Shown: in pieces, positions 5,918 to 62,974 of the stretch
How the letters are laid out: every line of letters begins with the position of its first letter
Numbering within the stretch: position 1 is the stretch's first letter
DNA from: Candidatus Gastranaerophilales bacterium
GTDB taxonomy: Bacteria > Cyanobacteriota > Vampirovibrionia > Gastranaerophilales > Gastranaerophilaceae
Length of the DNA: 64,000 bases
Reading direction: 5' to 3'
Assembly: GCA_944324315.1 (NCBI GenBank)
Contig: CALUVW010000008.1
Coordinates: 1 to 64,000, forward strand
Program-made: the position numbers and the translations under genes
Notes under the pieces: generated by a model
The model's database searches: none
Told to the model about the DNA's origin: nothing
Seen by the model: only the letters and a program-made list of their open reading frames with translations

Positions 5918-5965
5918 ATGAAAAAGACAAGATTTAGCGTATCTTCGGGGGGGGGGCAAATTTAA
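5918..5965 (+). CDS. Poly-G mini-ORF, candidate phase-variable 5' end of the next pilin-like gene
   Basis: As read, this encodes 15 residues, MKKTRFSVSSGGGQI, and ends with TAA. AAGGAGG sits 7 nt before ATG and a good promoter lies upstream, so it is likely translated. The glycine codons are a run of ten G (5947-5956). With one more or two fewer G, the frame avoids the TAA and stays open for 32 codons into the ATG of the pilin-like gene at 6052. Two further cassettes of the same layout occur at 46882 and 62921. Whether the short peptide or the fused form matters cannot be told from one sequence. Confidence 0.5.
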   Translation: MKKTRFSVSSGGGQI

Positions 5966-11189: not shown

Positions 11190-12034
11190 TTTTTAAAATT
11201 ACGTTTTAGTTTAAATTGTAATCCAAAAATCCGGACAATTTTTTTGCTTCTGTCATTTCTAATTGAAAAAATATTCTGCAGAAAGGTTACGTCTTGTTGT
11301 GCAAATTTATTATAAAGTAATTTTTGAGTTTTTATGTTATCAGTGAGAAAATTTAATATTTCTTTCTGAATTTTTTCAGATTCACTGCTCATTTTTGATT
11401 TTTGATTGCTGGCATTGTTTTCATGTTTTCTGTATTTAAGCAATACCTCTTGAATGTTTGCCATATTTAAGTATTTTGCGGCTTTTGCAAATAGTGCATA
11501 ATCCTGTGCTCCGTAATAACCTTCTTCATAAATAAGGTTATATTTTTCAAAATCCGCTTTCCGCCACATACATGCTGGGTGTATAATTTCGCATCTTTTT
11601 AGAAAATCTAAATATCTGGGAGAAGGTTTAGTTTTCCATATTTTTTTTGTGTTTAATATTTCTATCCATCCAGATACCAGTGAAATTTGCGGATTGTTTT
11701 CAAGGTAGTTATATTCTTTTTCCAGCCTGTCAGCAAGTGAAATATCGTCGTGATCCGCAATAGCAATATATTTCCCTTGTGCAAGAGATAATAATTTGTT
11801 ACGTGTTTTGGTTATACCGCTATTATCTTGTTTATAATATTTTATTCTAGGATCATTATAAGAGAGTATGATTTCTTGTACATTATTTGTTGAACCGTCA
11901 TTTAAAATAACAAGTTCAAAGTTTGTAAAAGTCTGGTTTAAAATACTTTCAATACAGGCGCGTAAATATTCTTCTTTAGTGTTATAAACCGGCAGAAGAA
12001 CTGAAACTTCGGGGGGGGGGCACTCTTTTAGCAT
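11186..12034 (-). CDS. GT2 glycosyltransferase with a C10 tract at its start (candidate contingency gene)
   Basis: 282 residues with a canonical GT2 N-terminus: VSVLLPVYNTKEEYLRACIE, LVILNDGSTNN, GITKTRNKLL, IADHDDIS. Codons 5-8 (CPPP) are written in ten consecutive C on the coding strand (12011-12020). At ten the gene is in frame; loss or gain of one base would truncate the protein within a few residues. Homopolymeric G/C tracts in glycosyltransferase genes are the classical phase-variation device in Campylobacter and Neisseria. The ATG overlaps the stop of the upstream GT2 gene, so a frame change would silence only this enzyme. It converges on the FN3-GT2 gene with a 4-bp overlap. Confidence 0.85.
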   Translation of the reverse strand: MLKECPPPEVSVLLPVYNTKEEYLRACIESILNQTFTNFELVILNDGSTNNVQEIILSYNDPRIKYYKQDNSGITKTRNKLLSLAQGKYIAIADHDDISLADRLEKEYNYLENNPQISLVSGWIEILNTKKIWKTKPSPRYLDFLKRCEIIHPACMWRKADFEKYNLIYEEGYYGAQDYALFAKAAKYLNMANIQEVLLKYRKHENNASNQKSKMSSESEKIQKEILNFLTDNIKTQKLLYNKFAQQDVTFLQNIFSIRNDRSKKIVRIFGLQFKLKRNFKN

Positions 12035-46452: not shown

Positions 46453-46779
46453 ATGGGAATCAAACAGGAATTTGGCAGAAAAATAAAAAGAATGCGTATA
46501 AACCGTGGTTTGACGCAGGAAGAACTTGCTGAAGCCGTTGACTTATCTCAGCGTGCGATGAGCGGTATTGAAACCGGTGAAAATTTTGTGTCGGCAGAAA
46601 CTATTGATAAACTTGTAAAAGCTCTTGATACTTCCATGGAAGAATTATTTGCAACCGATCATTTAAAAGTCGGTGATGAATTAAGAAAAGAAATTGATGA
46701 CAAGCTTGATGTTCTGACAGATGATCCTTCAAAGTTGGTTATTGTTTATAATGTTGTAAAAAGTCTTTTGAAAGAGTAA
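46453..46779 (+). CDS. XRE-family transcriptional regulator
   Basis: 108 residues: a textbook Cro/C1 HTH (FGRKIKRMRINRGLTQEELA, LSQRAMSGIETG) in the first 65, and a helical C-terminal part for dimerisation. No clear Shine-Dalgarno. It is immediately upstream, same strand, of the poly-G cassette and pilin-like gene at 46882-47933, so regulation of that locus is plausible. Confidence 0.85.
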   Translation: MGIKQEFGRKIKRMRINRGLTQEELAEAVDLSQRAMSGIETGENFVSAETIDKLVKALDTSMEELFATDHLKVGDELRKEIDDKLDVLTDDPSKLVIVYNVVKSLLKE

Positions 46780-46820
46780 CAATTATATATATAATTGTTA
46801 AAAATCTTCTTGCCGCAAGG

Positions 46821-46849
46821 TTGAATTTTACTAAAAAAAATGTTAAACT
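46821..46849 (+). promoter_or_regulatory. Promoter of the second poly-G mini-ORF
   Basis: TTGAAT at 46821 and TAAACT at 46844, 17 bp apart. The same arrangement precedes each poly-G mini-ORF. Confidence 0.55.
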
Positions 46850-46881
46850 AATAAAGTATAAAAAAAAGAAAGGAATGATGT

Positions 46882-46938
46882 ATGAAGAGATTTATTATGC
46901 CTGAAACACGCGGGGGGGGGGCGATTCCGAGCTTTTAG
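46882..46938 (+). CDS. Poly-G mini-ORF, candidate phase-variable 5' end of the next pilin-like gene
   Basis: As read, 18 residues: MKRFIMPETRGGGAIPSF, with AAAGGAATG upstream of the ATG. The Gly codons lie in ten G (46912-46921). One more or two fewer G avoids the TAG and gives a reading frame uninterrupted for about 100 codons to FTLAE of the pilin-like protein. After the G tract the sequence resembles that of the 62921 cassette (GAGGTCAAGAAGTCAAGCAA, then GTCATCCTGAA). Start codon to the first codon of the downstream frame is 38 nt, as in the other two cassettes. Confidence 0.55.
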   Translation: MKRFIMPETRGGGAIPSF

Positions 46939-46988
46939 AAAGCAGTTTAGCTAAGAGGTCAAGAAGTCAAGCAAGTTTAAAAAATGTC

Positions 46989-47009
46989 ATCCTGAACTTG
47001 TTTCAGGAT
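46989..47009. repeat. Interspersed palindrome, ATCCTGAA/TTCAGGAT type
   Basis: ATCCTGAA and TTCAGGAT flank 5 nt. Related half-copies or variants lie near 48863-48921, 62786-62814 and 63020-63040. This family sits in spacers and, here, inside an open reading frame, where it reads VILNLFQDL. Confidence 0.7.
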
Positions 47010-47933
47010 CTGGTAATTAGATGCAAAGCAAATTTAGAAGGTAGGATAAGATATGATGGCAGGTTGTTAACTCCAATCTTCCTTCCCTTATTAGGGAAGG
47101 ATAAGAGGATGGGTAACTATTTCAGCTTATCCAAGTTGCTATCCATCCCTGTCCCCTCCCTGATTAGGGAGGGGAAATCAGATACTATCCCTTCACCCAA
47201 CAAAAAACGCAAAGCAGCATTTACTTTGGCAGAAGTTCTCATCACGCTTGGAGTCATCGGTGTAGTAGCGGCTTTAACAATGCCGTCATTAATAGCACAT
47301 TATCAGAAGAAAGTATTGGTTACGCAGATAAAAAAAGCGTATTCAACTTTAAATGAAGGTTTCAGGCAAATAATGATTAATGAAGGCTGTACAGATTTAA
47401 TTTGTGCCGGCTTAATATATACTGAGTATGGTTCCTCTGGTGAGTTTTATCTTGGTTCTATCATCATTAATGATTCTAACTTAAACAAACTTGCCACAAC
47501 TTTCAAACTATCAGATTTTTCAAATACAAAAAATATATTTGATTATGAAATCAAAAGCTTGAATGGCGATGTGTTTGATTTTGATCCTTTTTCTAATGGA
47601 CGGTACACCGGTGTAACTCCAGATGGTATGTTTTTACTTTTTAGTTCTGAGATGGAGCCATTAGTTTTTTTTGATGTCAATGGTAGAAAAGGGCCAAATG
47701 TTTTTGGAAGAGATATTTTTGGTGTAATGATTATAGATACTATGCTTACTCCAATGTACAGCCAGGCTTTTCTAAGATTTGCAGCTGGCTCGAACGTTAT
47801 TCCTGATGATATGTCTGAAGATGATAGGATTTCCTTAATCAAACAAGCATGTTCTCCAGAATCCGATGAAATTTCTCAATTGACTGTCTGTTTAGAACGC
47901 ATTATATTGGACGGATGGGAGATGAATTATTAG
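46998..47933 (+). CDS. Pilin-like protein with long repeat-derived N-terminal extension
   Basis: The class III signal AAFTLAEVLITLG starts near 47216 and is followed by GVVAALTMPSLIAHYQKK and a globular part with FFDVNGRKGPNVFGRDIFG. There is no conventional start close to it. The frame is open from the poly-G tract at 46912; the boundary given is the first start codon (TTG) after it, and ATG at 47109 (after AAGGATAAGAGG) is another candidate. The extension contains three palindromic repeats translated in frame. If the poly-G cassette supplies the start, expression would depend on tract length. A hairpin follows the stop. Confidence 0.75.
   Translation: MFQDLVIRCKANLEGRIRYDGRLLTPIFLPLLGKDKRMGNYFSLSKLLSIPVPSLIREGKSDTIPSPNKKRKAAFTLAEVLITLGVIGVVAALTMPSLIAHYQKKVLVTQIKKAYSTLNEGFRQIMINEGCTDLICAGLIYTEYGSSGEFYLGSIIINDSNLNKLATTFKLSDFSNTKNIFDYEIKSLNGDVFDFDPFSNGRYTGVTPDGMFLLFSSEMEPLVFFDVNGRKGPNVFGRDIFGVMIIDTMLTPMYSQAFLRFAAGSNVIPDDMSEDDRISLIKQACSPESDEISQLTVCLERIILDGWEMNY
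47081..47100. repeat. Palindromic repeat CCTTCCCT...AGGGAAGG
   Basis: An 8-bp inverted repeat with TATT loop, inside the N-terminal extension of the pilin-like gene and in frame with it. Same family type as 47152-47175. Confidence 0.7.
47152..47175. repeat. Palindromic repeat TCCCCTCCCT...AGGGAGGGGA
   Basis: A perfect 10-bp inverted repeat with GATT loop, translated as PSLIREGK. A related GC-rich palindrome is at 55806-55828, also inside a pilin-like reading frame. Confidence 0.75.
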
Positions 47934-47949
47934 ATAAATATAGTATCAA

Positions 47950-47991
47950 AATTGACATTTCCTTTCCAATTATGGAAGGGAAATGTCAATT
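47950..47991. terminator. Terminator between convergent genes
   Basis: AATTGACATTTCC and its complement form a 13-bp stem with an internal secondary pairing (TTTCC/GGAAG). It follows the pilin-like gene and includes the stop codon of the convergent gene at 47986. Confidence 0.7.
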
Positions 47992-48792
47992 ATTATTGTA
48001 TGGTGAAACTGTTAACGGCTGTGTTAATTTTAGTACAAAACTCGCTCCGTCAGGGATTTTTACATCTTCTCCACGCTGCATTACACCCCTGAGTCCTCCG
48101 CCGAGAGCCCCGACTCCTCCATATATTGCAAGATTTCTTCCCCAGTCATCACTTCCGCCGAGCGCTGTAAAAGCTGCCCCGATAAGCATACTGCCTAAAG
48201 CTCCTATTACTATATCACGTGTCATTTTTTTTGCCCGTTCGCTTTCGGCTTCCAGAATAATATTTTCTGTTGCAATATTTATAAAGTTTCCGTCAGGGGT
48301 TAATATCTGGTTAAAATTAATCTCCATTGCGCCGCTTCCGTATGCATATCCGGCAGCTTCAGCATCTTTTGCGCTTCCGTAAACCAGGCTTCCGGCAGGA
48401 GCAATTAACACTCCGTTGTATACAAAATCCTCTGTTAATTTTGCGGTTAATCTGTCATCCTTTTCAAGGCTTCCAGAACTTATTCCGGAGTCAAACGTTA
48501 TATAAAAAGAGGTGCCAGAAGGTACTTTTACAACTCTGCCTGTAAGTCTTTGCGGCTGTGAACTGTAAGTGTTATGAATTACTTCCTCTTGAATCAGGGG
48601 AGGTGTGTAGTTTGTCCTATCATTATTTTTTTGTCTTGTTTTTGAAAAATCGTTCTGGATTGGCTGTGATTGGATAGGTTGAAATCTTTTACGATCAAAT
48701 TCAGCCTGTGCTTCATCGCTGAAATCGTATGCAGCAAAAACAGGAACAGATAAAATTTGAAAACATATAAAACAAGCTAAAATCTTTTTCAT
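47986..48792 (-). CDS. Secreted protein with a TrbI/VirB10-like beta-domain pattern
   Basis: 268 residues with a signal peptide (MKKILACFICFQILSVPVFA). After a Gln/Pro-rich linker, a beta-rich domain reads GTSFYITFDSGISSGSLEK, LIAPAGSLVYGSAKDAE, then DGNFINIATE. The LLxPxGSxxxG core recalls TrbI/VirB10-type barrels, but I see no other type IV secretion genes, so this is weak. A Gly/Ala-rich segment (IVIGALGSMLIGAAFTALGG) follows and looks like a glycine-zipper membrane helix. TATAAT ends 9 nt before ATG. Confidence 0.7.
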   Translation of the reverse strand: MKKILACFICFQILSVPVFAAYDFSDEAQAEFDRKRFQPIQSQPIQNDFSKTRQKNNDRTNYTPPLIQEEVIHNTYSSQPQRLTGRVVKVPSGTSFYITFDSGISSGSLEKDDRLTAKLTEDFVYNGVLIAPAGSLVYGSAKDAEAAGYAYGSGAMEINFNQILTPDGNFINIATENIILEAESERAKKMTRDIVIGALGSMLIGAAFTALGGSDDWGRNLAIYGGVGALGGGLRGVMQRGEDVKIPDGASFVLKLTQPLTVSPYNNN

Positions 48793-62920: not shown

Positions 62921-62974
62921 ATGAGAGAATTATTAAGAACTGTAAACCTCGGGGGGGGGGCGATTTTGAGCTAA
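62921..62974 (+). CDS. Poly-G mini-ORF, candidate phase-variable 5' end of the next pilin-like gene
   Basis: As read, 17 residues: MRELLRTVNLGGGAILS, after a strong AGAGGAG. The Gly codons lie in ten G (62951-62960). One more or two fewer G continues the frame through about 114 uninterrupted codons to FTLAE of the pilin-like protein at 63229. The early extension (GGGGDFEL) matches GGGGDSEL of the 46882 cassette. The short as-read C-terminus GGGAILS also resembles GGGAIPSF there. Confidence 0.55.
   Translation: MRELLRTVNLGGGAILS

Follow-up and report, generated by a model that had tools for sequence, protein, structure and literature searches.

A G10 tract ahead of a prepilin gene is one member of a genus-wide tract family in Candidatus Gastranaerophilales

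The prepilin cassette and its G10 tract

The window, i.e., the whole stretch of 64,000 nucleotides that was analysed (contig C8), carries a pilin cassette at 46780..47985, between two conserved convergent genes: an HTH gene (46453-46779, + strand) and a TrbI-like gene (47986-48792, − strand). In seven relatives, these two genes adjoin, with neither pilin nor tract between them; judged by this gene order, the cassette is an insertion. It is closed at the 3′ end of the pilin gene, between the convergent genes, by a terminator-like hairpin with a strong, 19-pair stem (47950..47991, + strand).

The elements at the 5′ end, described in the initial annotation, are all present. The start codon ATG and the ten-codon leader MKRFIMPETR (46882..46911, + strand) are preceded by a ribosome site that reads GAAAGGA and followed by ten consecutive G (46912..46921, + strand), located on the G-rich (leading-like) strand by skew; identical or similar leaders occur at other tracts of the family. 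The -10-like element (TGTTAAACT) and the ribosome site of the leader (AGAAAGGA) belong to a block (46834..46881, + strand) that recurs in paralogous loci, with 85-93% identity from 46834 to the start codon across about nine of them. The promoter with a 17-bp spacer proposed earlier is weak by consensus: its hexamers (TTGAAT-17-TAAACT) score 8/12, under the scan threshold, and a sigma-70 consensus scan of the region yielded five promoter-like matches against 5.1 expected, which is not above chance.

As had been noted before, the zero frame through the ten G stops after 18 residues, and a tract of 11 G (or 8) joins the leader to a 350-codon open frame, which runs through KRKAAFTLAEVLITLG (FTLAEVLITLG) to a stop at 47933. 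The latter motif is the class III signal (N_methyl, PF07963; C8:47202-47279, 26.7 bits against a curated cut-off of 21.2) of a prepilin with a mature pilin-like domain (47202..47933, + strand). The signal is thus of the N_methyl type, not of the LPXTG/sortase type, and no Pfam domain was found in the mature part. The sole in-frame ATG between tract and signal, at 47109 (MGNYFSLSK...), would give the 36-residue leader already recognised as the nearest alternative, and it lacks a well-spaced ribosome site.

The tract is directly followed by the flanking DNA motif CGATTCCGAGCT (46922..46933, + strand; pattern C[AG]N1-2T[TC]N2-6[AG]GC), found after most tracts, and then by an open, repeat-bearing stretch (46934..47201, + strand; palindromic repeats, e.g., CATCCTGAACTTGTTTCAGGATC) that continues the leader frame only with 11 or 8 G. 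This stretch is long here and made partly of repeats; in other paralogues, only 6-30 residues lie between tract and signal, which places the tract within the cleaved leader peptide. Palindromic repeat families are present at 46976-47200 of the window and in most of the loci L047-L112, where they are read in frame as V(I/M)LNLFQ(D/H)L and LPSLIREG; we take them to resemble the coding palindromic elements of Rickettsia.

A family of tracts in the genome and its relatives

The tract at 46912-46921 is not a lone locus but one member of a genus-wide family. The genome of 1.88 Mb contains about 115 runs of at least nine G, against about 0.5 expected at the same composition. Runs of G9, G10 and G11 number 9, 97 and 9 in this genome, 11, 126 and 6 in G004, and 2, 73 and 1 in G007; per relative in the same genus, G10 runs range from 0 to 126, and in relatives from six other families from 0 to 3 each. 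Named records bearing the motif are Candidatus Gastranaerophilales MAGs, other uncultured MAGs and one record labelled Fusobacterium sp. CAG:439. About 80 of the 107 prepilin genes in the source genome carry a tract and about 25-30 do not. The window itself harbours two further G10 leader-prepilin loci: MKKTRFSVSS-G10 (5947..5956, + strand), with its own in-frame start further down, and MRELLRTVNL-G10 (62951..62960, + strand), which also needs one additional G.

A tract length constant at ten had been named in the initial annotation as speaking against a switch, and at the level of consensus assemblies (all genomes compared are consensus MAGs) this is largely what we see: 92 of 111 tracts in the source genome, 73 of 77 in G007 and 207 of 235 over the three species have exactly ten. 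Amongst the prepilins of these species, length 11 (ON) is nearly absent, and lengths 9 and 12 do occur. The basal relative G002 is variable. In a MutS tree, G002 branches first and G006 next. The leader-tract-prepilin genes of G002 have tracts of 9-16 G and mixed needed lengths, with three of nine in frame, in a sample that is small and partly chosen by tract length; they look like ordinary contingency loci. It is the other lineages that have the uniform, off-by-one G10 state. Several tracts of G002 (L269-L288) lie inside other genes or between genes, six of them within 16 kb in L282.

Some tracts lie near the start of surface genes other than pilins (glycosyltransferases), of which some are ON and some OFF. 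In the window, a glycosyltransferase gene carries C10 close to its start (12011..12020, − strand, the G run being on the + strand; MLKEC-PPP-EVSVLLPVYN) and is in frame at ten (12005-12030); similar genes in L058 (8487) and L066 (2351) need eleven. The variable N-terminus of a glycogen-synthase-like gene (orthologues L175, L177, L178, L179 and L185) includes a C10 (PPP) that is in frame in four species; a fifth species has C5AC4 at this place, and a sixth has different codons of the same length. These sequences indicate that the C10 arose in place, by substitution; insertion of ten bases was considered and rejected, the orthologues with and without the tract aligning gap-free at the site. They also argue that the length of ten is real in this gene.

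Leaders and cassettes occur in varying combinations at the tract: one leader is found with different cassettes and vice versa (L053/L093, L055/L065). L077 (C2:92001-111741) holds a near-identical 11-kb tandem duplication with two tract loci, where the frame of one leader is disrupted by an additional run of A8. The ends of several contigs in G000 (C11, C12, C25, C27, C31 and C38) are often less than 300 bases from a tract, and several of the end copies read G11 or G12. A phage origin was discarded, the motif having no match in IMG/VR. Loss of mismatch repair was likewise discarded, as nearly all members of the genus have MutS, and an apparent MutS “extension” in tract-rich species proved to be an upstream open frame, the start codon being unchanged.

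Reading frame, strand polarity and flanking motif

For 111 loci in the source genome, 77 in G007 and 47 in G004, we took the surroundings of the tract and computed, wherever a prepilin signal follows, the length that would join leader and signal. The needed length is 2 mod 3 (i.e., 11) in 72 of 77 cases in the source genome, 73 of 75 in G007 and 31 of 32 in G004, altogether 176 of 184; as assembled, one, one and none are in frame, respectively (2 of 184 tract-bearing prepilins). G-sense genes, C-sense genes and leaders of all three phases relative to the run share this +1 requirement, which, therefore, is not one inherited junction. Many of the copies are paralogous and are better counted by classes (species × sense × phase), about sixteen in number. 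In further MAGs, +1 is needed by 12 of 12 loci in CALVEU and by 11 of 12 loci taken from six other MAGs, the exception, in CALUVP, being ON; all of these loci had been chosen for exactly ten G.

Stops in the extended frame, which had also been named as evidence against a switch, are all but absent: the frame is open in essentially all paralogues. No in-frame ATG, GTG or TTG occurs between tract and signal in 20 of 77 genes in the source genome, 44 of 75 in G007 and 20 of 32 in G004, and these prepilins can, therefore, not be produced at ten without a change of frame. The mature pilin ORFs are intact, with one short amongst those with a visible stop, and the mature paralogues are under purifying selection (dN/dS medians 0.23-0.30), from which it follows that the genes are used. 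The tract thus sets the reading frame inside the gene, as slippage loci do, and the products are surface or surface-modifying proteins (prepilins and, by sequence, glycosyltransferases). At the same time, a conserved slippery run with a conserved offset over homologues (+1 in 176 of 184) is what a gene with programmed frameshifting or transcriptional slippage would show.

The orientation of the tracts follows the DNA strand. In the large contigs C1-C3 of G007, all 71 of 71 tracts have their G on the strand that GC skew, taken at sampled positions along the contigs, marks as G-rich, whichever way the gene points; oppositely oriented genes carry C10 instead of G10. On C1, the tract strand switches between 176 and 349 kb, with the cumulative skew minimum at 319 kb, and on C2 between 581 and 638 kb, with the maximum at 631 kb. 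In the source genome, local skew agrees with the tract strand in 99 of 112 instances. This strand lock, independent of gene direction and tracking the turning points of the skew, points to replication rather than RNA.

The sequence downstream of the run shows the same polarity. Read on the G strand, the flanking pattern given above follows the run in 49 of 55 G-sense and 17 of 22 C-sense genes in the source genome, in 39 of 54 and 13 of 21 in G007, and in 18 of 23 and 6 of 9 in G004, against means below one in shuffled controls; as the gapped pattern was written after seeing these data, the counts demonstrate sharing between the senses and are not an independent prediction. Without gaps, a PWM comparison between the two gene senses did not match the flanks best at offset 0, owing to their variable spacing, whereas the gapped pattern was clear. 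A context signal in the transcript is not apparent here: the flank tracks the G strand in both gene senses and not the mRNA. Hairpin pairing of the two flanks (CTC...GAG) was set aside, since by eye it fits only some copies.

Proposed slippage switches and competing explanations

The initial annotation had read the locus as a contingency switch in its OFF state. This is still the best reading, although a simple, free-running locus fits poorly, with some 180 genes sharing one +1 offset and hardly any of them ON. Considering the sequences, we lean towards a large set of replication-slippage (contingency) switches, OFF by default and ON at +1; the frame logic, the purifying selection, the replication polarity and the contrast with G002 all favour slippage. 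In each cassette, a short leader with its start codon, ribosome site and promoter leads into G10 (or C10) within the cleaved prepilin leader. At ten, the ribosome would be out of frame and would meet a stop within about 13-20 codons; the gain of one G (or C) would fuse leader and prepilin, so that rare cells might make one or a few of the about 80 pilins before soon falling back to OFF. The run of G would stay on the template of the lagging strand, the place where slippage is expected, and in a flanking context that favours it. Length change in living cells, 11 as the expressed state, flanks that set the rate of slippage and the function of the pili are the inferred parts of this proposal.

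Some of the findings do not sit well with slippage. With ten in 207 of 235, the tract is too uniform for a freely drifting run, and ON is almost never reached at 9, although +1 and −1 should serve equally; MutS is present, and slippage does not need a shared DNA motif around the tract. If 11 shortened faster than 10 lengthened, the ON state would be brief, which would account for 11 being so rare and for there being hardly any genes with their ON state at nine. We also entertain, albeit with clear doubt, a dedicated replication-coupled or recoding system that would recognise the C-G10-C motif and hold the length at ten, with about 80 prepilins per genome off by one base and expressed via a +1 event that is programmed, at the DNA or the RNA level, and not by free slippage.

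Rather unlikely, in our estimate, is programmed recoding, where the DNA stays at ten and a low, set level of the about 80 prepilins would be made through transcriptional slippage, with RNA polymerase adding a base, or a −1 slip of the ribosome on GGGGGGG/CCCCCCC. One length and one offset over gene senses, leader phases and species have the look of a programmed frameshift family, the genes are intact and conserved despite being out of frame, and the fixed length and offset are better accounted for in this way than by slippage. As in known programmed frameshifting and transcriptional slippage (PMC3711429, PMC1088944), a slippery run and its offset are conserved in homologous genes; the known bacterial slippage runs are mostly A/T. 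Furthermore, run and flank motif keep to the DNA strand and the direction of replication, not to the mRNA; an RNA mechanism gives no reason for C10 in lagging-strand genes, and G002 mixes in-frame and out-of-frame genes.

The strict strand polarity and a DNA motif common to both gene senses would also suit a site for protein binding or recombination (resembling Chi, KOPS or uptake sites, or a junction for swapping leaders and cassettes), of which the frames are a by-product; the exchange of leaders between cassettes and the in-place origin of C10, with a similar flank, in the glycogen-synthase-like gene would agree with it. We regard this as improbable: the same +1 offset of almost every prepilin would be left unexplained, tracts cluster within the first codons of prepilin genes, and a genome-wide Chi or KOPS role is at odds with only three sites on the 253-kb contig C1. 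Very improbable is a systematic length error in these consensus MAGs, with true tracts of 11 and genes simply ON: database G-tract lengths may be off by one, as in Bifidobacterium breve, where a locus annotated as G11 was about 60% G12 in cells (PMC9187656), but G002, likewise a MAG, shows 11-16, so assemblies can report other lengths, the glycogen-synthase-like C10 is in frame in four species, with an interrupted C5AC4 of equal total length in a fifth, and the glycosyltransferase in the window is in frame at ten.

The closest known system is the pilus switch of B. breve, a gut commensal in which ON/OFF switching of sortase-dependent pili by replication slippage in G tracts has been reported (PMC9187656); there too, a short leader ORF, a G tract and a pilin ORF out of frame by default are fused upon a change in length. 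It comprises one or two clusters of sortase pilins with a measured length spectrum, as compared to about 80 type IV-type prepilins here, with one length and offset, G and C versions, a strand lock and a flank motif. For phase variation in non-photosynthetic gut relatives of cyanobacteria, no report was found in the literature searched, a body that left out most subscription papers.

In Neisseria, Campylobacter and Helicobacter, tract lengths are spread out, with some genes ON and others OFF. Poly-G/C contingency loci in these genera (e.g., 115 genes in N. meningitidis; PMC5084427) likewise place many frame-determining homopolymeric tracts near the starts of surface genes; in the present family, in contrast, the length is ten almost everywhere, nearly all prepilins are OFF by +1, and there is a conserved flank with replication polarity. 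If the proposed switching holds, this would be one of the largest sets of frame-switched genes in a single genome. The uniform +1 offset and single strand polarity amount to about 180 natural replicates for weighing free slippage against a controlled event, between which ordinary stool metagenome reads could decide. The prepilins themselves resemble other type IV prepilins in their class III signal (N_methyl), which scores above the curated cut-off, and differ in the frame-determining tract before the signal and, in many copies, in leaders that bear repeats and reach up to about 167 residues.
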